From NCBI GenBank assembly GCA_011525625.1, contig WYAX01000015.1, positions 310,001-374,000 of the forward strand: DNA of 64,000 nucleotides. The letters run 5' to 3'. The translations under genes and the position numbers were made by a program. The DNA comes from Nitrospira defluvii. Its GTDB lineage: Bacteria; Nitrospirota; Nitrospiria; Nitrospirales; Nitrospiraceae. The notes below the pieces were generated by a model. It searched no databases. It saw nothing but the letters and a program-made list of their open reading frames with translations, and was not told where the DNA came from. This document shows, piece after piece, positions 45,918 to 56,697 of this stretch (position 1 is the first letter of the stretch; the number at the start of each line of letters is the position of its first letter).

Positions 45918-47333
45918 ATGGGTGGAAGACGGACGGTGATGATCGGATGCGCGTTGGTCATGTTGGTGGGGTTGTTTTCATTTCCCCGCTTGCTCTTAGG
46001 CAGCGATCAGACTCGCGTCAAGGAGATGATCCAGAACAACTGTGCCGGATGTCACCGCCTGGAAGGGGCGCCGATGTCCCGACTGGAAAAGAAGGCGCCC
46101 GATTTGATCGGGGCCGGCAGCAAATTCAAGCATGAATGGTTGGTAAGCTGGCTGGCGGGCAAGGAGCCACCGCTGTATGCGAAGAGTTATCGTTGGGACC
46201 AGAGTCAAACGGCGCAACCCCATCCGGCCGTGTCCCAGGCCGAGGCGGAAGAGATCGCGAAATACCTCGAAACCAATTTTGTCGATCCGAAGGTGAAGTC
46301 GGGTGCCATCGATATGGCGACATTCAGTAAGCAAGAGGCGGCATTCGGCGAGAAGATCTTTAAGGAACATGCCTGCATCGGCTGTCATCAAGTACGGGAA
46401 GGCGACAAAACCGTCGGGGGTCCGCAAAGTACGTCGTTGGCAGATGCCGGCAGGCGGCTGAAGGCGGATTGGATTCACCGCTTTAATTCGAATCCGCCGG
46501 ACTATGTACCCCACAGCGGGGAGTTCGTGGGCGATGTGAGTGAATTGGGTTTACGGTATGTCACCGGCTATATCGCGACTAGAGGGTGGGAAGATTTTCC
46601 CTACTATGAACCGTGGAAGAGCGAACCGTTTGGGCATACGAGCTTGGATCGAGGCCGAGTCATTTATAAGGAGTATTGTGCGCAGTGTCACGGCGCAGCC
46701 GGCAAGGGCGACGGTCCCGCCGCCTCCGGCTTGGACCCGAAGCCGGCGATCCATGCCAACATTCCATTCGAGAAAGTCCCGACGGACTATCTCTATAACG
46801 TGATCTACTACGGTGGTCGAGCCGTAGGAAAATCGCCCACCATGCCGTACTGGGGCCTCACCATCGGACAACAAGGCGTCGCCGACGTGATGGCCTATCT
46901 GAAGGCTACCTTCAAGGGCGAAGCGGAGGTCGCGCAGGCAGCCGCAGGGTCCGGTGAAGGGCCGAGCGGCGTCTGTCCGCAGCCGAGAAAGACGGCGAAA
47001 GCCCCGGCAGATTTCCTGTCCAAGACCAATCCGTTGCCGCATTCGGATGCGACTATCAAGGCGGGGAAATCGCTGTTTCTGCAGACCGCTCAGCCCGTGG
47101 CTTGCGCAATGTGCCATGGGGACAAGGGGAACGGGCAGGGCTTCATGGGCGCGGCCTTGATTCCACCGCCCAGAAACTTTACCTGCGGCTCGATGATGAA
47201 GGACATTCCCGACGGGCAACTGTTCTGGATTATCAAGAACGGGTCGCCGGGCACCGGCATGATGTCGTTCGCCGGGTTGCCGGACGATCAGGTGTGGCAA
47301 TTGATCGCCTATATCCGAAGTTTGGCGAAATGA
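45918..47333 (+). CDS. Tetraheme c-type cytochrome with four CXXCH domains
   Basis: 471 residues with signal peptide (about 6-28) and four heme motifs: CAGCH, CIGCH, CAQCH and CAMCH. The N-terminal half matches the diheme protein at 24988 ('APDLIGAGSKFKHEWLV', 'RLKADWIHRFN'), and the last two domains each resemble the small class I cytochromes ('GDKGNGQGFMG', 'GSPGTGMMSFAG'). It looks like a fusion of a diheme module and two monoheme domains, probably a membrane-proximal or periplasmic electron wire. It follows the sulfite genes by 36 bases. Confidence 0.87.
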   Translation: MGGRRTVMIGCALVMLVGLFSFPRLLLGSDQTRVKEMIQNNCAGCHRLEGAPMSRLEKKAPDLIGAGSKFKHEWLVSWLAGKEPPLYAKSYRWDQSQTAQPHPAVSQAEAEEIAKYLETNFVDPKVKSGAIDMATFSKQEAAFGEKIFKEHACIGCHQVREGDKTVGGPQSTSLADAGRRLKADWIHRFNSNPPDYVPHSGEFVGDVSELGLRYVTGYIATRGWEDFPYYEPWKSEPFGHTSLDRGRVIYKEYCAQCHGAAGKGDGPAASGLDPKPAIHANIPFEKVPTDYLYNVIYYGGRAVGKSPTMPYWGLTIGQQGVADVMAYLKATFKGEAEVAQAAAGSGEGPSGVCPQPRKTAKAPADFLSKTNPLPHSDATIKAGKSLFLQTAQPVACAMCHGDKGNGQGFMGAALIPPPRNFTCGSMMKDIPDGQLFWIIKNGSPGTGMMSFAGLPDDQVWQLIAYIRSLAK

Positions 47334-47854: not shown

Positions 47855-48931
47855 ATGAAAAGGCAGGGGGCGCGCATGGCAGGAAACGGGCAAGGAAACG
47901 GCAAAGCCAAGGGGCGAAAAGATCGTGAACCGACGGAGCCGGACACGATGCTCGGATCACAGGATCTGGAAGAGGACGACCTGGAGGTGATCCCCACTGC
48001 CGTCCCCCGGGTGGGCGACGGATACGAAGCGGCGCGTGACCCCGGAGGCGCCATGGCGGCGGGATTCATCGGTGAGGCGGGCCGGATCCTGAGTGAAGAG
48101 GATCTCCGGCGGATCAACACGCCGAGGGGCCTGATCCAACTGATCAAGAGCAAGAACATCAATCTGGAAGAGGTTCGCAAGACGCTTTTATACGAACAAG
48201 AACTACGGCAGCTGCAGGTCGAATTGGTCCGGCTCCAACGCTGGGTACAAGCCGACGGTCAACGCATTGCGATTCTTGTCGAGGGGCGTGATGCGGCCGG
48301 CAAAGGCGGCACGATCCGCCGGTTCACCGAACACCTCAACCCGCGGGCCATGCGGGTGGTCGCCTTACCCAAGCCCACTGACGACGAACGGGGACAATGG
48401 TATTTCCAGCGCTACATCCGCCAACTGCCCAACAAGGGTGAAATCGTCTTCTTCGATCGGAGTTGGTACAACCGAGCCGTGGTGGAGCCGGTCATGGGTT
48501 TTTGCAGTAAGAAGGAACACCAGCGGTTCCTGCAGCAGGTCACGGAATTCGAGCACATGCTGTACGAAGATGGCGTCACGATCATCAAGTTCTGGTTTTC
48601 GATCTCCAAGGAGGAGCAGGCCAAGCGATTCGATGCCCGCCGGCAGAATCCGCTCAAACAGTGGAAGCTGAGCCCGGTCGACGAAAAGGCGCAGGAGATG
48701 TGGGATTCGTACACGCGATTTAAAGAGGAAATGTTCAGCAAGACCCATACGACGTTCAGCCCCTGGATCATCGTGAAGGCGAACGATAAGCAGGCGGCTC
48801 GCCTGGAGGGCCTGCGGTATGTGTTGAATCTCCTGCCGTACAGGGGGAAGGATGAGGCGCAGATTCGCCTCACGCCGGATCCCAACGTGATCACCCGTTT
48901 TCATCGGAAGATGGCGGAACTGGATTTCTAG
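47855..48931 (+). CDS. ppk2: Polyphosphate kinase 2 (PPK2)
   Basis: 358 residues: an N-terminal extension of about 85, then the PPK2 kinase domain with Walker A 'VEGRDAAGKGGTI' (about 142-154) and the lid/Walker B type 'FFDRSWYNRAVVEPV' (about 200-214), 'SISKEEQAKRF' and 'KAND'. It moves phosphate between polyphosphate and nucleotides. It is 6 bases after the DsrE gene. Confidence 0.92.
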   Translation: MKRQGARMAGNGQGNGKAKGRKDREPTEPDTMLGSQDLEEDDLEVIPTAVPRVGDGYEAARDPGGAMAAGFIGEAGRILSEEDLRRINTPRGLIQLIKSKNINLEEVRKTLLYEQELRQLQVELVRLQRWVQADGQRIAILVEGRDAAGKGGTIRRFTEHLNPRAMRVVALPKPTDDERGQWYFQRYIRQLPNKGEIVFFDRSWYNRAVVEPVMGFCSKKEHQRFLQQVTEFEHMLYEDGVTIIKFWFSISKEEQAKRFDARRQNPLKQWKLSPVDEKAQEMWDSYTRFKEEMFSKTHTTFSPWIIVKANDKQAARLEGLRYVLNLLPYRGKDEAQIRLTPDPNVITRFHRKMAELDF

Positions 48932-49541
48932 TCCCTGGACGAATCTGACCTGGCACAGGGTCTTGGGCTATCTTGCCGCAGGAAATAGAAGCCACTTCGC
49001 TTCAGATTAAAAGAAGTCGGTCGGTCGGGTTCATTCACACAGAGCTCGGCAGTCGCGTCCTGCCACACCGGGCTCTTGCTGCTGTTGCAAGAATCACCAC
49101 ATGCGGCCACATTCTCTCAACCGGCATCCTATGACGCCTGGTTCGGGCTCCCTCCCTATCGTTGATACACCCTCTCCCAGTTCGTAGGGTTTCTGTTGCA
49201 AGCGTGAGTAGTGAGCGGCATCCGCAGGCCTATCGATACCTGCGGGAGGCAGCGTTTCAGGGGATACGCCACAAGGATCGGTGCGATGTGTACCGTCCGG
49301 TTGTCTCTCCGGATCAGGCTCAAAGATTGCTCCATACATTCCTGCAGTCGCGATGCGGGGTTGTCCCTGGGCGTCACAATGTACCATTCAGGGAAGGGCA
49401 GAACGGCATGTCCGGAATGCGAGTCTAGGGTGGGCGAAACACAGGTCTCCCTGCGGTCGATGATGTTCCGTATGAACGGCGCGGACAGGATCTGTTCGGC
49501 ATAGAGTCACCGTCGGAGCCAGAGGAATGAGAAGGTCTACA
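48932..49541. other. Long intergenic region before the ABC/NosL cluster
   Basis: 610 bases. One plus-strand frame around 49162-49428 has protein-like composition in part ('VVSPDQAQRLLHTFLQSRCG') but no ribosome site and only TTG or GTG starts; it might be a decayed gene. I see no tRNA, palindrome or terminator of note. The promoter of the 49542-55891 operon presumably lies here. Confidence 0.4.
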
Positions 49542-49838
49542 ATGTTTCTGTTCACCATGATGGTGGAAGTCGTCGTGCTCGGTCTCCTCTTAGTCCATGC
49601 CGCTTTCCATGAGGAGTCCGGCCGAGCGACCCTCCGGGAGAAGGCCGCATTGATCGCAAGACTCAAACTGACCGACTTCTGTCTGTTCCCCGAAGCGCGC
49701 TATACGCGGCATCTCTCGCAGGCAGATTTGCATTCCGGGTTCCAGGACCACCCCTTTTCTCTCGAACATTTTCCGTCGGGGTCGTTCACCGCGCCGCCGA
49801 GGGATTTAGGGAGGAGTGTGCATGAGAGCCTGGATTGA
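49542..49838 (+). CDS. Small membrane-anchored protein heading the ABC/NosL operon
   Basis: 98 residues: N-terminal helix (about 1-20, 'MFLFTMMVEVVVLGLLLVHA') and a soluble tail with 'LKLTDFCLFPEARYTRHLSQAD' and a Cys at about residue 47. ATG 49542 follows GAAGG by 6 bases; ATG 49527 has an ill-spaced site. The gene overlaps the permease start by 17 bases. Family not recognised, but its place makes it a likely accessory of the transporter. Confidence 0.7.
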   Translation: MFLFTMMVEVVVLGLLLVHAAFHEESGRATLREKAALIARLKLTDFCLFPEARYTRHLSQADLHSGFQDHPFSLEHFPSGSFTAPPRDLGRSVHESLD

Positions 49839-51081
49839 GAAGCAACGATACCTGATGGACTTTACACTCTCCTCGCTGCTCAGGCGGAAGGTGAAAAATC
49901 TCAGTTTGCTGCTGCTCTATACGCTCATCGTCTTTATCCTCGCCTCGGCGATGTTTTTTACCGACTCAATCAAAAAGGAGGCGTCGCTGATTTTGCACGG
50001 GTCTCCGGAGATCATCGTGCAGAAAGTGAGAGCGGGGCGACACGAGCTCTTCCCGATTCGTCAGATCGATCGGCTCAAGACCATCCGGGGGGTCGCTTCG
50101 GTGGAGGGGCGGCTGTGGGGCTACTACTTCGATCCCGATGTGGGCGCGAACTACACATTTCTTGTGCCAACGGCCGGCAGCGCATCCGTCACCCCGCATA
50201 ACGCATCGACCGACGTCGTTGGTGGGGAAGGTGACGAGTCTGCAGGAGCGGCTGTTCCGTCCACTGAACCTCTCTATCGCGTGAATCTCGATACGTTGAA
50301 GTCCGGCACCGCCGTCATCGGCCATGGCATGGCGCGTCTTCGGCATGCGGGTACGGGCGACGTGATGGCGTTTCGCGCCTTCGACGGCACGTCGATGAAT
50401 TTCAGAATTGCCGATACGTTCTCCTCCAAGTCCGAACTGGTCTCGGCCGATCTGATCGTCGTCACCGAGGTCGACTTTCGGCGACTGTTCGGCATCCCTG
50501 TCGATGTCGTGACGGATGTGGTCCTATCGGTCAATAACCCGCGGGAAATCTCCACCGTCGCGACGAAGGTCGCGAAGGTGCTGCCTGACGCTCGACCCAT
50601 CACACGGGACGAGGTCCTGAGAACGTATGATTCGATCTTTAACTGGCGGGGCGGGATGATGCTCGTGCTTCTCTCCGCCGCGGTGCTCGCGTTTGTCATC
50701 TTTGCCTGGGACAAGGCCTCAGGCCTGAGCGCGGGGGAAAAGTGGGAGATCGGTGTATTGAAAGCCATTGGCTGGGAGACCGCAGATATCATTCAGATGA
50801 AGTTCTGGGAAGGGGCGGTGGTGTCGCTGACGGCCTTTTTCACCGGCGCGATTGTCGCTTACCTGCATGTGTTCCTGTTGTCGTCGGTCGTCTTTGAGCC
50901 GGCGCTCAAAGGCTGGTCCACCCTGTATCCCCAGTTTCAATTGACGCCTTTCGTCAATGCCGCGGAATTGACGACGCTGTTTGTTCTGACGGTTGTGCCC
51001 TATACCACCGCGACCATCGTGCCGATCTGGAGAGCGGCCACGCTGGACCCGGATACCGCAATGAGGCGCGTAGGGGAATAA
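49822..51081 (+). CDS. FtsX/MacB-like ABC transporter permease
   Basis: 419 residues: N-terminal helix (about 27-49), periplasmic domain (about 50-270), and three C-terminal helices, the FtsX/LolE/MacB-type permease layout. 'GEKWEIGVLKAIGWETADIIQMKFWEG' is the family's conserved cytoplasmic loop. ATG 49822 follows GGGAGGAG. Adjacent LolD-like ATPase overlaps nothing but is 2 bases on. Substrate may be a periplasmic protein or metal chaperone, judged by neighbours. Confidence 0.88.
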   Translation: MRAWIEKQRYLMDFTLSSLLRRKVKNLSLLLLYTLIVFILASAMFFTDSIKKEASLILHGSPEIIVQKVRAGRHELFPIRQIDRLKTIRGVASVEGRLWGYYFDPDVGANYTFLVPTAGSASVTPHNASTDVVGGEGDESAGAAVPSTEPLYRVNLDTLKSGTAVIGHGMARLRHAGTGDVMAFRAFDGTSMNFRIADTFSSKSELVSADLIVVTEVDFRRLFGIPVDVVTDVVLSVNNPREISTVATKVAKVLPDARPITRDEVLRTYDSIFNWRGGMMLVLLSAAVLAFVIFAWDKASGLSAGEKWEIGVLKAIGWETADIIQMKFWEGAVVSLTAFFTGAIVAYLHVFLLSSVVFEPALKGWSTLYPQFQLTPFVNAAELTTLFVLTVVPYTTATIVPIWRAATLDPDTAMRRVGE

Positions 51082-51083
51082 TC

Positions 51084-51761
51084 GTGATCGAATTGATGAA
51101 CGTGAGAAAAGTCTTCAACAGCGGGAAACCCAGCGAATTCTCTGCGTTGAACGGGATCGATCTCAGAATCAGCGCGAACCAGGTCACTGTGCTGGTCGGC
51201 CCGAGTGGGTGCGGCAAGACCACGCTCCTCACCATCATCGGCTGTATGGCCAGACCTTCGGCGGGGCGTGTCAGACTCGGCGACCGTGAGATCACCAGTC
51301 TTCCAGAACGCTTTCTGACCGAGATCAGGCGCAGCACCTTCGGCTTCATTTTTCAGCAACCGAATCTGATCAAAGGGCTCAGCGCGCTGGAAAATGTCAT
51401 GTTGCCGGCCTATCCGTTAGGAGGGCGCCGCGCCCTGCTCAAAGACAAGGCCATCCGATCGCTTGACGCTCTGGGGCTGGCCGAAAAGGCCTTGTCGAAA
51501 GTCGAGTGGCTCTCCGGAGGGGAGGCCCAACGAGTGGCCATTGTGCGGGCGTTGATCAACGATCCCTCGGTGGTCATTGCCGATGAACCCACCGCTCATC
51601 TCGATAGGACCTTATCGCATCGATTCCTGGAGATCGTCGAGCGATTCAAGGCGGAAGGGAAGACCGTGTTGATTACCAGTCACGATCCGTTGGTTTATGA
51701 ATCCCGTGTCGTGGATCGCGTGGTCAAACTCAGGGACGGAAGACTCGAGGCAGAGGCATGA
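51084..51761 (+). CDS. LolD-type ABC transporter ATP-binding protein
   Basis: 225 residues: Walker A 'GPSGCGKTTLL' (about 37-47), signature LSGGEAQRVA (about 137-146), Walker B 'SVVIADEPTAHLD' (about 156-168), H-loop 'TSHDP'. It is the ATPase partner of the 49822 permease, which starts two bases before it. The stop overlaps the next gene by ATGA. Confidence 0.9.
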   Translation: MIELMNVRKVFNSGKPSEFSALNGIDLRISANQVTVLVGPSGCGKTTLLTIIGCMARPSAGRVRLGDREITSLPERFLTEIRRSTFGFIFQQPNLIKGLSALENVMLPAYPLGGRRALLKDKAIRSLDALGLAEKALSKVEWLSGGEAQRVAIVRALINDPSVVIADEPTAHLDRTLSHRFLEIVERFKAEGKTVLITSHDPLVYESRVVDRVVKLRDGRLEAEA

Positions 51762-52753
51762 TTCTCCATCCGGCCGTCATCGCCAATGTGGTGGCATCCC
51801 TGATTGTCAGCGGGGCGCTCGTGTATGCGGCCGTGTACGGAATACAGATTCTGAGAAGGTGGGATCTTCAAAGCGGCGATGAATACCAACTCGTGTTGGA
51901 GCGTAGAACATATCTGATCTCGACCATTCTGACCTTTGCCTGCGGGTTGGAATTGATGTCATTGTTCTTGTACGTGTTCACGGCGAACAATCTCTGTCCG
52001 TTGTTCGTCGGTGCGATGTGCGCTGCCGGCACGTTGAATGTCAATCCTTACGGCTACCCTACGCTGGTGCTCAAGATCATCGGCTTTATCTTGGCCGGGC
52101 TCTGGCTTATTCTCAACCACGCCGACAATCAGGCCTACGACTATCCACTTATTAAAAAGAAGTACCTCCTGCTGGCGCTGCTCGTGCCGTTCAGTGTGCT
52201 GGAAACCTCTCTGCAAGGCGCCTTCTTCCTGAATCTAAAAGCCAATGTGATTACCTCCTGCTGCGGCAGTCTCTTCAGCACCGAGCAGGTTAAGGGAGTC
52301 GGATCGGAACTTGCGGCGCTGCCGATCGTCCCGATGATGTGGACCTTCTATTGTGGGATGGGATGCCTGATGGCTTCGGGCATTCATTTCTATCGGAAAG
52401 GCAAAGGCGGCTACGTCTATTCCACCATGACCTTTGTGATGTTCGGGGTGTCCATTGCCTCCATCATCTCGTTTATCTCCATCTACATCTATGAACTGCC
52501 GACCCATCATTGTCCCTTCTGTATCGTAATGGAGGAATATGGCTATATCGGCTACGCGCTGTACATTCCATTGTTTGGGGCGGTCGTGACAGGCATGGGG
52601 ATTGGAGTACTGATGCCGTTCCAAGACATAACGAGTCTCCGCGGGGTGATTCCGGGACTGATAAGAAAACTGACCCTCACGTCACTGACCCTCTATGCGG
52701 CATTCATGGCGATTGTGCTCTACAAGATCGCGACGTCCACGCTCGTACTGTAG
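51758..52753 (+). CDS. Cys-rich polytopic membrane protein of unknown function
   Basis: 331 residues with about eight hydrophobic helices. Cysteines form several pairs: 'NNLCPLFVGAMC' (about residues 77-90), 'ITSCCGSLFS' (about 163-170), 'FYCGMGCL' (about 195-200) and 'THHCPFCIV' (about 249-256). The CPFC motif near a membrane helix recalls thiol-redox proteins such as VKOR or DsbB-like enzymes, or a metal gate. It overlaps the ATPase stop and precedes NosL, so it is coupled to the ABC transporter. No family is recognised with confidence. Confidence 0.75.
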   Translation: MILHPAVIANVVASLIVSGALVYAAVYGIQILRRWDLQSGDEYQLVLERRTYLISTILTFACGLELMSLFLYVFTANNLCPLFVGAMCAAGTLNVNPYGYPTLVLKIIGFILAGLWLILNHADNQAYDYPLIKKKYLLLALLVPFSVLETSLQGAFFLNLKANVITSCCGSLFSTEQVKGVGSELAALPIVPMMWTFYCGMGCLMASGIHFYRKGKGGYVYSTMTFVMFGVSIASIISFISIYIYELPTHHCPFCIVMEEYGYIGYALYIPLFGAVVTGMGIGVLMPFQDITSLRGVIPGLIRKLTLTSLTLYAAFMAIVLYKIATSTLVL

Positions 52754-52772
52754 CTGAGAGACCCACAGTGAA

Positions 52773-53291
52773 ATGAGACAGAGATTTGCAGTCAGCCGTC
52801 TCGCCGCCTATTCGACCGTTCTGATGATCGGGATTCTGCTGTGCGTGATCGGTATCGCCGATTCATTCGAGCGGGGGCGGAAACCTATGACGAAGAAGGA
52901 TAAATGTCCGGTGTGCGGGATGTTTGTCTACAAATATCCCAAATGGGTGGCGGTCATTGAATTTGCAGACGGCACGTCGTTCTATTACGACGGTGCCAAG
53001 GACATGTTTAAACATTACATGAACGTTCCCAAATATGCGCCCAGCAAAGCGGGTCAGGGCATTGTGTCCCTCTCCGTCACGGATTATTACGCCGTCGCAC
53101 TCATTGATGCCAAAACTGCCTATTACGTAATCGGGAGCGATGTGTATGGCCCCATGGGGCATGAATTGATTCCATTTGAAACCCTGGCATCGGCACAGGA
53201 GTTCTTAGAGGATCACAAGGGCGTACGCATCCTGCAGTTCCCTGAGGTGTCGCAAGAGACGATTCAGGCTTTGGATGCGGCTCAGCAATGA
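52773..53291 (+). CDS. nosL: NosL-like copper chaperone, membrane anchored
   Basis: 172 residues: N-terminal helix (about 11-30), then the NosL domain with 'DKCPVCGMFVYKYPKWVAVIE' (split here at the Cys pair about residues 44-47), 'GTSFYYDGAKDMFK', 'IDAKTAYYVIGSDVYGPMGHELIPF'. NosL binds Cu(I) and helps mature nitrous oxide reductase. No nosZ is in the window, so the client is uncertain. It lacks the usual lipobox. It sits between the membrane protein and a TlpA-like gene. Confidence 0.9.
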   Translation: MRQRFAVSRLAAYSTVLMIGILLCVIGIADSFERGRKPMTKKDKCPVCGMFVYKYPKWVAVIEFADGTSFYYDGAKDMFKHYMNVPKYAPSKAGQGIVSLSVTDYYAVALIDAKTAYYVIGSDVYGPMGHELIPFETLASAQEFLEDHKGVRILQFPEVSQETIQALDAAQQ

Positions 53292-53305
53292 CAAAGGAGT
53301 CTACG

Positions 53306-53803
53306 ATGAGGTGTGTCAAGAACCTGTTGCCCCTACTGCTGTTTCTCCTATTCGTGAGCGGTTGCGCGCGATACGAGTCGTTACATATCGGAGATACCCC
53401 GCCGCAAGTTGTCTTGTCGGACATGCACGGGAAACGCATGACGGTCCCGGGTGATCTGAAAGGCCAGGTCGTCCTCATTCGCTTTTGGTCGGCCACCTGT
53501 CCACGTTGCACCAAAGAAATGATCAATGCCCTCGAGAGTCTGTACCAGAAATACCGGGAAAAGGGTCTGATCGTGCTCTCGGTCAACGTGAATCCGCTCA
53601 ATGAGGTTTCTGACAAGTTTCGTCAAGCCGACAAGGTGTCGTTTTCCGTTCTACTCGATCCTGACTTGTCGGCCGCCAAGCGGTATGGGGCGAAGGTGCT
53701 GCCGACTACGTTCATTTTGGATCGGAATGGCGTCGTCAAAGAAAAGATGCTCGGCGAGACGGGGGTGGAGATGTTTGAACCGCTGGTGAGGGAGTTGTTG
53801 TAG
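53306..53803 (+). CDS. TlpA-like thioredoxin-fold lipoprotein
   Basis: 165 residues: lipobox 'LFVSGC' (Cys about 20), then a thioredoxin fold with active site 'SATCPRCTKE' (CPRC about residues 67-70), and a 'LPTTFILDRNGVVKE' cis-Pro region. It could reduce or donate to disulfides or handle copper in the periplasm, as TlpA, ScoI and PrrC-like proteins do. ATG 53306 follows AAAGGAG; ATG 53288 is an alternative. It is 14 bases after nosL. Confidence 0.9.
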   Translation: MRCVKNLLPLLLFLLFVSGCARYESLHIGDTPPQVVLSDMHGKRMTVPGDLKGQVVLIRFWSATCPRCTKEMINALESLYQKYREKGLIVLSVNVNPLNEVSDKFRQADKVSFSVLLDPDLSAAKRYGAKVLPTTFILDRNGVVKEKMLGETGVEMFEPLVRELL

Positions 53804-53904
53804 CCGATGGCGCAATGGCGCCCGCACAGCGTAGCCCAGCGTGAAGCCGGGAGTATCTGCGGCAGCGCATCGAATTCCTCCTCAGTTTCAGGAGGTGGAT
53901 CGCG

Positions 53905-54291
53905 GTGATCTTTCCTTCATGCGAGCTTGGACCGCAGGGGGCGGTGAGCGTGCCTCACCGGCGCCACAGAGAGGGAGCTCTTCGTGCCCATCTGTGCCCA
54001 GTTGCGGCCAGGACACTCCCCCTTGTCGTAGCGGTGATACTCATTGTTTCTGCAGGAGGCGCGTTCGCCTATGATCTCGGACATCAGTGTTCTCATACAA
54101 TCGGCCTGCACGGCACCGGCATCTGTGCCTGGATGTGTGGAACAGGAGCGGACATTGAAACCGCGCCGACTCCCGTTGTGTCCCATGATGCATGTCAGTG
54201 CGGTGCAAGGCTGCTGAGTGCCGCTGGCCGAATCCAATCCGAGGCAGTTGGGCTGATCCATTCGCGCGCCCCTCCCAATCCGCTCTTCTGA
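53905..54291 (+). CDS. Small exported Cys/His-rich protein
   Basis: 128 residues starting with GTG 53905, 6 bases after GGAGGTGG at 53891-53898. A hydrophobic segment (about 38-54, 'LPLVVAVILIVSAGGAFA') is followed by a Cys/His-rich region: 'GHQCSHTIGLHGTGICAWMCG' (about 58-78) and 'HDACQCG'. It may bind copper. Its position between TlpA-like and NosL-porin genes supports a metal-linked role. Family not recognised. Confidence 0.6.
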   Translation: MIFPSCELGPQGAVSVPHRRHREGALRAHLCPVAARTLPLVVAVILIVSAGGAFAYDLGHQCSHTIGLHGTGICAWMCGTGADIETAPTPVVSHDACQCGARLLSAAGRIQSEAVGLIHSRAPPNPLF

Positions 54292-54475
54292 CATAGCGTC
54301 TATCCGCATCGGAGATCGTCCGCCAGGCCCGCCGTGGGTCTTGTTCGTCGGCTCCAGGGCTGGTGCTGTGGAATGCGGTTCTCCTGCGCATCTTAACTCC
54401 ACGCTCATGTAGGAATGACGGAACGCGGCCGGACGTAGCCCACGCTCAATAAATGGAGCAATAGAAGGCACAGGT

Positions 54476-55891
54476 GTGAAGGTGAAACTGTTCATGAGTA
54501 TGAAGCCCATATGGATGCTTTTTCTGTTATCGGCATGTCTCGCCCCCGCGATCACTTTTGCAGACAATCCGGGGGTGCCTAATGAGGAAGCGATCGGCAC
54601 CGGCGAGCGGGAAGAGTGCAAGGTCTGCGGCATGTACATCGATCAATACCGTCGGAGTTCCGGCGAGCTGGTCCACAAAGATGGAACGAAGGAACATACC
54701 TGCGGCGTGGCCTGCCTGCTCCGCATTTTGGACGATGAGGGGATGGATGCGTTCAGCTCCATCTGGGTGCATGACTGGAAGACGGGAAAACAGTTGGATG
54801 CCCGGGAGGCGACCTATTCGCTTGGAAGCCGGGTGATTCCGGACATGATCCCCAACTTTATTGCCTTTGAAACCGAACAAGCGGCTGAGGCTTTCAAGGC
54901 AGAGAAAGGAGGTGAGGTGGTCACATTCAACCAGGCCATGCAACTCATCACCCCGCGCGGACAAACCGTCCCGTTCCGTCTCCAGACCGCGGTCACAACG
55001 GGCAAAGGATCGTTCGGGATGGGGATGGGGTTCAGCTATCTGCGCAGGGATCGCGTCTTGCTCGGGTCGGATGGGCAGGATCCTGGAGATTTCATCAGAG
55101 GCCGCCCGCAACAGCCACGTGCGCCCAGGAATGCCGTATCGTTCGGGCAATCCATCTTTGTGAACTATGGCATCAGCGACCGGCTGGCTGTGTTGGTGAA
55201 TCAGCCATACTTCGAACGGCAGACCAGTCAGTTCACCAGAAATCTTGCCACTGGTGCGATTACGACTACCGGTGCCGATGCCGCGGGGCTCGGGGATCTC
55301 GATCTGCGGTTTCGTTACAATTTATGGAGGAGCACCATTCAGGACAAATGGGTTACGCTGATCGCCACGACCACTCTCCCCACGGGGAAGTTTAACAAGG
55401 TCGCGATCGACAGTCCTGCGCTGCAGACAGGAACGGGCGCGCCGTCGTTCGGCGGGGGGCTGCTGTTCTCCTACAGTTGGCGCGACCTGTGGATTCATAC
55501 GTCCACTACCTATACAGCCAGGCTCGAGAATCGTGACCGTTATAAATTTGGAAATGAAGCGGCGGCTGGTCTCGCATTCCATTACACTCCCAACTACAAT
55601 CACATGTTCGGAGTAGAACTGGATGTCGCGCATGTCGAAAAGAATGAAAATCTCGGTGCAAAGGTCGGCAATAGCGGGGGCGTGAGAGCCAACGTGAATT
55701 TCGTTGCGGATTGGAGATTCATGAACGCTCTGGGCGGCAATTTTACGCTACGAGCGGCAGTCGGAATGTCGATGTATGAAGACCTCAACCGACAAACCAT
55801 CGGTCAGCGAGATCAGGTTCAGCTTGGCGGAGGCTATTTTGCGAATCTGGCGCTCAACTATGCCACCCGCTTTCCCTTCATTGAGGAGTGA
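54476..55891 (+). CDS. NosL domain fused to an outer-membrane beta-barrel
   Basis: 471 residues. After a signal peptide, residues about 42-170 form a NosL domain: 'EECKVCGMYIDQYRRSS', 'HTCGVACLLRIL', 'VHDWKTGKQLDAREATY'. From about 175 to the end the sequence is an outer-membrane barrel: 'GMGMGFSYLRRD', 'SIFVNYGISDRLAVLVNQPYF', 'GLGDLDLRFRYNLWRS', 'HMFGVELDVAHVEKN' and 'QLGGGYFANLALNYATRF'. A metal chaperone joined to a porin-like barrel is not an arrangement I know. Start GTG 54476 or ATG 54494/54500. It ends the operon begun at 49542. Confidence 0.88.
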   Translation: MKVKLFMSMKPIWMLFLLSACLAPAITFADNPGVPNEEAIGTGEREECKVCGMYIDQYRRSSGELVHKDGTKEHTCGVACLLRILDDEGMDAFSSIWVHDWKTGKQLDAREATYSLGSRVIPDMIPNFIAFETEQAAEAFKAEKGGEVVTFNQAMQLITPRGQTVPFRLQTAVTTGKGSFGMGMGFSYLRRDRVLLGSDGQDPGDFIRGRPQQPRAPRNAVSFGQSIFVNYGISDRLAVLVNQPYFERQTSQFTRNLATGAITTTGADAAGLGDLDLRFRYNLWRSTIQDKWVTLIATTTLPTGKFNKVAIDSPALQTGTGAPSFGGGLLFSYSWRDLWIHTSTTYTARLENRDRYKFGNEAAAGLAFHYTPNYNHMFGVELDVAHVEKNENLGAKVGNSGGVRANVNFVADWRFMNALGGNFTLRAAVGMSMYEDLNRQTIGQRDQVQLGGGYFANLALNYATRFPFIEE

Positions 55892-56142
55892 TGCCGATGC
55901 AGTAAGCAGATCTATCTGGAACCGTCTGTACCGCTACGGGGAATCGTTCCGCCGGGGAGCCTGCTCCAAGAGACTTGCAGGCGTGCCGACCGTTGCGTCG
56001 AGCATGTTCTGCCGGATGTAGGCTGAGGGGCGGTTCATATGGCACAATAGGGGAGGCAGCGTCAGATGCTTCCCGGTGTCGGCATGCCGGTTCATGCGCG
56101 TGATGGTTCGCCTGCGGATCGGACCAGGGGAAGGAGAAGGTT

Positions 56143-56697
56143 ATGAGACGGGACGTCCTCCTGCTGACGGTTGCATTGATCTCCCTGGGCATCTCCGCCG
56201 ACGCTGCGGAACGTCACATCAGACATCCCCGTGTGCCTGCCGATAAGCTGGCCGAAGCGCGTGCGCTCACCAACCCGTTGTCGGATTCTCCTGAGACGGT
56301 CGAAAAAGGGAAGGCTCTCTATAACGGCAAAGGTACCTGCGTGAACTGTCATGGGAAAGACGGGGACGGTAACGGACCGGTCGCGGCGCAACTCGATCCG
56401 TCTCCGCGGAATTTTCATCATAGGCAATTCTGGGAAGAACGCACGGAAGGGGAAATTTTCTGGGTGATTAAGAACGGCTCGCTGGGCACAAGCATGGTCG
56501 GATTCGGCGATGCACTCTCTGACGAGGAAATTTGGGCGATTGTACGGTATGTCGATGGATTTTCCGGTGAAGATCGAACAGGCATGATGGGCCATCGTCA
56601 AGGCAGGGGCCCGATGAGGGGACGACATGGTGGGATGGGGCATCGGGGTATGCGAGGCGAGAGCGGGAATTGCGAAGGGGAGCATTGCCGGCGTTAG
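56143..56697 (+). CDS. Periplasmic monoheme cytochrome with Gly/His-rich tail
   Basis: 184 residues: signal peptide (about 1-22), heme CVNCH (about 66), 'GKDGDGNGPVAAQL', 'GSLGTSMVGFGDALSDEEIWAIVRYV', then a C-terminal tail rich in G, H, M and R (about 145-184) that may bind metal. A class I cytochrome domain similar to the tetraheme protein's last domain ('IKNGSPGTGMMSFAG'). The ribosome site GGGGAAGGAGAAGG precedes the ATG. Confidence 0.87.
   Translation: MRRDVLLLTVALISLGISADAAERHIRHPRVPADKLAEARALTNPLSDSPETVEKGKALYNGKGTCVNCHGKDGDGNGPVAAQLDPSPRNFHHRQFWEERTEGEIFWVIKNGSLGTSMVGFGDALSDEEIWAIVRYVDGFSGEDRTGMMGHRQGRGPMRGRHGGMGHRGMRGESGNCEGEHCRR

Follow-up and report, generated by a model that had tools for sequence, protein, structure and literature searches.

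The chaperone NosL has been described as dedicated to nitrous oxide (N2O) reductase, and in clade II NosL a CXXCXM motif with a second methionine has been tied to Cu(I) (Bennett et al., PMC6530538, in the accessible part of that source). A NosDFY/NosL locus without NosZ has been reported from Parageobacillus, with a copper nitrite reductase as its proposed recipient (accessible part of PMC13068155). NosL is also listed among copper genes or gene content in Bizionia (PMC11213822) and in a Methylocaldum genome (PMC10974252), and the accessible parts of these two sources hold no cassette like the one described here. This study concerns a stretch of 64,000 nucleotides of the Nitrospira defluvii genome (contig WYAX01000015.1, positions 310,001 to 374,000; hereafter the window), in which eight plus-strand genes between positions 49527 and 55891 combine NosL-type proteins with an ATP-binding cassette (ABC) transporter. 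In order, they encode a small protein with a single transmembrane (TM) anchor (sTM), an FtsX-type permease, a LolD/FtsE-type ATPase (LolD), a cysteine-bearing polytopic membrane protein (CysTM), a first NosL (NosL1), a TlpA-like lipoprotein, a Cys/His-rich peptide, and a second NosL fused to a beta-barrel (NosL2-barrel). No published description of this cassette was recognised in the open literature, a search outside which most subscription papers fall.

The cassette is like NosDFYL in outline and is not a NosDFYL. Both pair a NosL that carries the Cu(I) motif with a dedicated ABC transporter and a periplasmic site of action. However, the cassette has an FtsX-type permease instead of a NosY-type one, two families unknown to Pfam and NCBIfam, two NosL proteins, no lipobox motif in most NosL1 sequences and, in one branch, a NosL-barrel fusion, and 49 of 50 carrier genomes have no near-full-length NosZ match. 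MacB, LolCDE and FtsEX-type transporters are type VII ABC transporters. The cassette shares with them the FtsX permease domain and a LolD/FtsE-like ATPase, but falls under the cut-offs of the LolCE, LolD, FtsE and MacB models and is linked to copper chaperones. Its barrel has the fold of FapF and COG4313 channels, from which the cassette protein differs by its N-terminal NosL domain. The Parageobacillus locus also joins NosL to an ABC transporter without NosZ, with NosDFY where the cassette has FtsX, LolD, CysTM and sTM (accessible part of PMC13068155). The reading we favour, with confidence just short of even, is an envelope Cu(I) relay in which the NosL chaperones and the complex of FtsX, LolD, CysTM and sTM load exported cuproproteins other than NosZ.

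Conservation and distribution of the cassette

With each species represented by one genome, 109 stretches coding for relatives of CysTM came to light, and the best 80 of them were taken as loci (L004-L083). Counts of cassette genomes refer to 50 genomes, namely the window genome (G000) and those of 50 of the 80 loci, two loci sharing a genome. Many carriers are metagenome-assembled genomes, possibly incomplete, and single absences among them carry little weight. By record title, the carriers include Methylomirabilis, Methylococcaceae, Nitrosomonas, Nitrospirae, Deltaproteobacteria and Holophagaceae/Geothrix, along with single records of other labels.

The genes for sTM, FtsX, LolD and CysTM are contiguous and in the same order in 62 of the 66 loci with upstream room. 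The four exceptions are two rearranged loci (L032, L071), one with a split FtsX frame (L042), and one in which sTM and FtsX were not found (L061). We count four core genes because the open reading frame (ORF) at 49527-49838, whose product the initial annotation left undescribed, also represents a conserved family, present in 69 of the 80 loci. The initial annotation treated the locus as one functional set, and comparison with related genomes agrees: the set is conserved across phyla, with its core intact in those 62 loci.

The position of the accessory genes depends on the type of locus. In most NosL-bearing loci outside the methanotroph type, the core has NosL1, often together with NosL2, on its upstream side; in the methanotroph type, which includes the window, NosL1, TlpA and NosL2-barrel lie downstream. 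The full downstream set was found in five of six further genomes of the methanotroph order, the sixth (G305) having the core, NosL1 and a separate NosL2, with no barrel detected. Every one of the 50 cassette genomes has a NosL. A record titled Nitrospira sp. Ru_enrich_NS (L027:7210-10993) carries a cassette of another branch, with NosL upstream, a CysTM of 55% identity, and CPFD replacing CPFC in that CysTM.

Proteins of the core

The sTM family has a TM anchor and the motif LTD-[LF]-C-LF-x-EARYTRH...FQDHP..EHFPSG. In the 69-row alignment, D50, A57, R61, D67, F72, Q73, P76, F82 and P83 are invariant, and C52 (0.93) and H81 (0.97) nearly so. Neither sTM nor CysTM matched any model in Pfam, NCBIfam or PHROGs.

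The permease has homologues in 74 of the 80 loci, and FtsX is its sole Pfam match. Hydropathy places three TM stretches above threshold, near residues 25-52, 277-302 and 334-356, with a large stretch separating the first from the second. The ATPase scores 172 bits with the FtsE model and 167.8 bits with the LolD model, both under the equivalog cut-offs (307.75 for LolD). An FtsX domain with an adjoining gene for the cognate ATPase places the pair among FtsX-type (type VII) ABC transporters.

In the 61-row alignment of CysTM, C88, C168, C169, H250 and C252 are invariant, and H251 and C255 nearly so. The predicted model has eight helices, at a predicted local distance difference test (pLDDT) of 90.3, and puts the conserved cysteines and histidines in loops 2-3, 4-5 and 6-7, on one shared side. 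Over 79 rows, mean lysine plus arginine counts are 1.7, 3.2, 2.0 and 2.1 in the odd loops and 0, 0.3, 1.9, 0.6 and 0.6 in the even ones. From these counts we favour a periplasmic placement of the Cys/His side, loop 4 not discriminating. We prefer a metal site over an obligatory dithiol because C255 is replaced by aspartate in 3 of the 79 rows. It had been suggested that structural models might illuminate this protein, and the searches returned no specific solved fold among the listed matches: the best match to PDB sequences has an E-value of 1.9, Foldseek gave nothing at E<=0.001 (best 0.064), and the VIA-align matches look like generic helical bundles, the best (Z 13.7) being to a designed protein.

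NosL proteins and accessory genes

The CXXCXM motif and the second methionine are conserved in both NosL types, in all aligned rows. In NosL1, C45, C48, M50 and M128 are present in 56/56 rows, and in NosL2, C48, C51, M53, C76, C80 and M124 are present in 25/25. NosL1 matches NosL chains of the PDB at E 5.1e-8. A simple pattern finds a lipobox-like motif in only 2 of the 56 NosL1 rows, and PF05573 does not require one.

The fusion of NosL to an outer-membrane barrel, read from the sequence in the initial annotation, is real by predicted fold. The model (pLDDT 75, built from 14 sequences) matches NosL 7og7 in its N-terminal part (Foldseek E 2.6e-6), and its barrel matches FapF 5o67 (E 3.7e-13) and the COG4313 channel 4rl8 (E 3.8e-12). 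Against the top 20 chains, the barrel gives TM-scores on the target of 0.68-0.74 at identities of 14-16%. That this protein completes a metal route from inner to outer membrane stays a proposal. Among the 80 loci the fusion is restricted to 14, all of the methanotroph type (0 of 31 full loci of the other type). Because the barrel is found in those 14 loci, whereas the NosL2 match of 25 loci is either separate or truncated, the outer-membrane step looks like an add-on.

Two genomes, G224 (L104) and G219 (L105), carry NosL-barrel fusions apart from the core, and a third, G235 (L106), shows a weak match to the barrel. L104, on contig C109 of G224, has NosL1, NosL2 and NosL-barrel in tandem, with no core gene within the 10 kb examined, while the core locus of the same genome (L038) has no NosL in the locus. 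This arrangement implies that the fusion is not confined to methanotroph-type carriers.

The TlpA-like lipoprotein has a CPRC active site and a VSGC lipobox, and scores 95 bits with the ResA subfamily model, under its cut-off of 170. The small Cys/His-rich peptide (53905-54291) has no family match in the model libraries searched. Its sole significant match among the loci is a homologue (L004:1268-1597) beside the Methylomirabilis cassette, with 49% identity over 65 amino acids (E 2.5e-13). This ICAWMC peptide is downstream in one of the two cassettes and upstream in the other.

Copper-related neighbours

Neighbours were counted in 39 full loci of at least 20 kb each, as homologues of annotated representatives detected by profiles that were built in the analysis from the neighbourhoods themselves. 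A CusA/CzcA-family resistance-nodulation-division (RND) gene is found in 13 of the 39, each time with a CusB-like adaptor gene; the adaptor scanned with Pfam, from L037, has a YHS domain. Multicopper oxidases are found in 10 loci (one is a 48-bit fragment at the locus edge), DsbD_2-cupredoxin genes in 8, SCO1-like genes in 7, and P-type ATPases in 6. DsbD is present in 7 loci, which are seven of the eight full methanotroph-type ones, and five of these eight carry a P-type ATPase. The one P-type ATPase scanned passes the copper model TIGR01511 with 576 bits (cut-off 397), but it also passes the general heavy-metal model and the cadmium model. By chance, RND genes would be expected in about 4.5% of loci, calculated from 8.2 matches per genome (E<=1e-50); this rate is somewhat too low, as no more than about 12 candidates per genome were scored, and the rough tail is 8e-9. 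For multicopper oxidases the chance rate is about 2.2%, from 3.8 PF07731 matches per genome, with a rough tail of 1e-8, or about 1e-7, by hand, when 9 loci are counted. Copper is well supported because the neighbours include CusA/CzcA RND genes, multicopper oxidases, SCO1, a copper-type P-ATPase and DsbD, and we consider it very likely that some copper function is involved.

Candidate clients

The window genome gives no full-length NosZ match; the three hits it yields are partial, C-terminal and CuA-like, none above 32.2 bits (TIGR04246; the clade-I model was not run). Among the 50 cassette genomes, one has a near-full-length match, of 473.3 bits, under the 625-bit cut-off. The same model gave weak matches in 6 of 14 controls, none above the cut-off, and PF18764 gave no match in any control. 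We therefore reject a NosZ maturation locus. The initial annotation had suspected a copper-associated set distinct from NosZ maturation, and four observations agree with it: the conserved synteny, the presence of NosL in all 50 carrier genomes examined, the near absence of NosZ matches among them, and the common copper neighbours. Multicopper oxidases of family PF07731, a candidate universal client, are found in 44 of the 50 cassette genomes, but also in 9 of the 14 controls. In the window genome, the only PF07731 matches are a CopA-type protein and two in frames of 352 amino acids.

A putative copper relay and its alternatives

In the favoured relay, the two NosL-type chaperones would hold Cu(I) in the periplasm and exchange it with the inner-membrane complex of FtsX, LolD, CysTM and sTM. 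As in transporters of the MacB/LolCDE type, ATP hydrolysis would power movement on the periplasmic side, and the complex would pass Cu(I) to exported cuproproteins, NosZ excepted. Docking or transfer may take place at the Cys/His sites of CysTM and sTM, and the cysteine ligands would be kept reduced by TlpA, aided by DsbD in loci that have it. In the window branch, the second NosL, fused to an outer-membrane channel, may provide an added point of entry or exit at the outer membrane. What the analysis establishes is the gene content, its conservation, the motifs, the lack of a full-length NosZ match, the copper neighbours in relatives and the horizontal insertion, while copper binding by any of these proteins, the energised step, the direction and the client are what we infer. 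TlpA, SCO1, DsbD and NosL are assembly-type partners. We prefer delivery over efflux because of the roles of TlpA, SCO1 and DsbD and the known role of NosL (the latter from the accessible part of PMC7558416).

Several observations weigh against the relay. Unlike canonical NosL, NosL1 does not read as a lipoprotein by motif in 54 of its 56 rows, and 6 of the 39 full loci (L026, L028, L038, L043, L061, L073) have no NosL in the locus. Thirteen of the 39 have no RND, adaptor, oxidase, SCO1 or P-ATPase gene, and the neighbour tails are rough, with kinship ignored and profiles taken from the same neighbourhoods. The CusA/CzcA family is not copper-specific, and its presence points equally to detoxification. 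There is no multicopper oxidase inside the insertion that carries the cassette, and the window genome yields no identified client. That genome does have 12 matches to the CusA/CzcA heavy-metal RND model (with about 12 candidates at most scored) and a CopA-type copper-resistance oxidase (TIGR01480, 804.5 bits; L084, contig C21 of G000, 104000-117000).

The last observations suit copper detoxification, a close rival, in which the machine would gather periplasmic Cu(I) and hand it to efflux, by Cus-type pumps elsewhere and by the NosL-barrel in the window branch. It also draws on the frequency of RND genes above expectation, each with its adaptor, and on the P-type ATPases of the methanotroph-type loci. 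Nevertheless, none of the eight full methanotroph-type loci, the window's own type, has an RND gene, and the assembly-type roles of TlpA, DsbD, SCO1 and NosL count against it, and we rate detoxification as somewhat less likely than delivery.

Three of the RND matches of the window genome fall in a stretch of about 54 kb of contig C21 (77452-131367), which suggests a metal-resistance island. Downstream of the CopA-type oxidase in L084, the ORFs read as an outer-membrane-like protein followed by a P-type ATPase that is seemingly split by a transposase gene.

Copper acquisition, in which the NosL-gated outer-membrane channel would import copper and the inner-membrane complex pass it on, would be useful to methane or ammonia oxidisers with a high demand for copper. 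In its favour, both the barrel fusions of the cassette loci and the pmoA/amoA matches (10 of the 50 cassette genomes) are all methanotroph-type. However, there is no pmoA/amoA match in the window genome or in 40 of the 50, the barrel is absent from the full loci of the other type, and of 151 evenly drawn methanotroph-order genomes, 16 have CysTM and 122 have pmoA. The 16 include two without a pmoA match (G204 and G249) and leave out a seventeenth CysTM match, a partial one (E 6.7e-4, 56 positions). We consider acquisition improbable. As an obligate client, particulate methane monooxygenase or ammonia monooxygenase (pMMO/AMO) is rejected for the window, which lacks pmoA/amoA, and is unlikely in general given the counts in the methanotroph order.

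FtsX and LolD are usually components of lipoprotein, division or efflux systems, and CysTM carries both a CPFC and a CC motif, with a TlpA protein next to it, but a thiol-redox or lipoprotein-trafficking machine like LolCDE or MacB, in which NosL would play a structural role or handle another metal, is very doubtful in view of the low scores (LolCE 39.7 against a cut-off of 362.45 bits; LolD likewise far below its own), the aspartate at C255, odd for an obligate CXXC redox pair, and the copper neighbours and NosL linkage.

Horizontal acquisition of the cassette

The cassette is an insertion of about 7.2 kb between genes that adjoin in five same-genus relatives. The left-flank gene (47855-48931) is presumably PPK2-like, and its protein is 98.6% identical in one relative (G025); on the right, a cytochrome c gene starts at 56143. 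The insert has a G+C content of 56.3%, against 59.9% in the left flank and 61.1% in the right. A further 99 relatives of the window genome gave no CysTM match, and 196 gave no NosL match. The insert is not a contaminating contig, since it lies on a 525-kb contig with both flanks common to the relatives.

A maximum-likelihood tree built from 77 CysTM sequences pairs the window sequence with Methylomirabilis (82% identity) with support of 100/100, and nests the two in a 19-row methanotroph-type clade (100/99). This pairing, together with the absence from close relatives, indicates that the cassette was acquired horizontally; the tree leaves donor and direction unassigned. Plasmid searches with CysTM and NosL-barrel gave no match. 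Two c-type cytochromes near or beside the insertion (45918-47333 and 56143-56697) match the cytochrome 579 model under its cut-off, and homologues of both are present in the five relatives compared.

Gene layout

All the ORFs named in the initial annotation were found, and Pfam backs the NosL, FtsX, ABC and TlpA assignments (Table 1). Its first gene is real, with the start moved from 49542 to 49527, as homologues begin MR[KR]S (R2 in 0.96 of 69 rows). The single operon that it drew from 49542 to 55891 holds by spacing for the first six genes, which overlap by 4 to 23 bases or are separated by at most 19, but not for the last two, which follow gaps of 101 and 184 bases. A consensus scan gave no usable signal, with 0 promoter-like sites against 3.6 expected and 6 terminator-like sites against 5.7, and it placed no terminator-like site in either gap.

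Table 1 Features of the cassette and its insertion, in window coordinates
Feature	Position	Strand	Evidence
sTM, small protein with single TM anchor	49527..49838	+	69-row alignment; no known family
FtsX-type permease	49816..51081	+	PF02687 30.5 bits (cut-off 25.5); start probably 49822
LolD/FtsE-type ABC ATPase	51084..51761	+	ABC_tran 103.7 bits
CysTM, eight-TM Cys protein	51758..52753	+	61-row alignment, model pLDDT 90.3; no family match
NosL1, exported or N-anchored, CPVCGM and second invariant Met	52773..53291	+	PF05573 106.7 bits (gathering score 24)
TlpA/ResA-like thiol-disulfide lipoprotein	53288..53803	+	AhpC-TSA 7.6e-22 / Redoxin
Small Cys/His-rich exported peptide, core HTxGxHxTxICAWMC	53905..54291	+	No family match
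NosL2-barrel, NosL domain and outer-membrane-type beta-barrel	54476..55891	+	PF05573 64.1 bits (gathering score 24); Phenol_MetA_deg 24.5 bits (cut-off 22)
Insertion carrying the cassette	48932..56142	.	Flanking genes adjacent in five same-genus relatives; G+C shift

Implications

It is possible, although we lean somewhat against so broad a claim, that these genes form an undescribed envelope-copper ABC machine that joins an FtsX-type mechanotransmitter to paired NosL chaperones and to two orphan membrane proteins with metal sites, and that has spread horizontally over several phyla. One branch would end in a NosL-gated channel of the FapF/COG4313 type, which would give copper a route across two membranes or let a copper-loaded protein or peptide out. 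Here NosL marks another conserved machine, in genomes that gave no full-length NosZ match, and a NosL annotation alone should thus not be taken as a sign of the capacity for N2O reduction. If the relay is true, an FtsX-type ABC system would join the small set of known copper-delivery machines, and two unnamed families, sTM and CysTM, would gain a testable role. The carriers include methanotrophs, nitrifiers and Deltaproteobacteria, in which copper supply bears on methane and nitrogen turnover.

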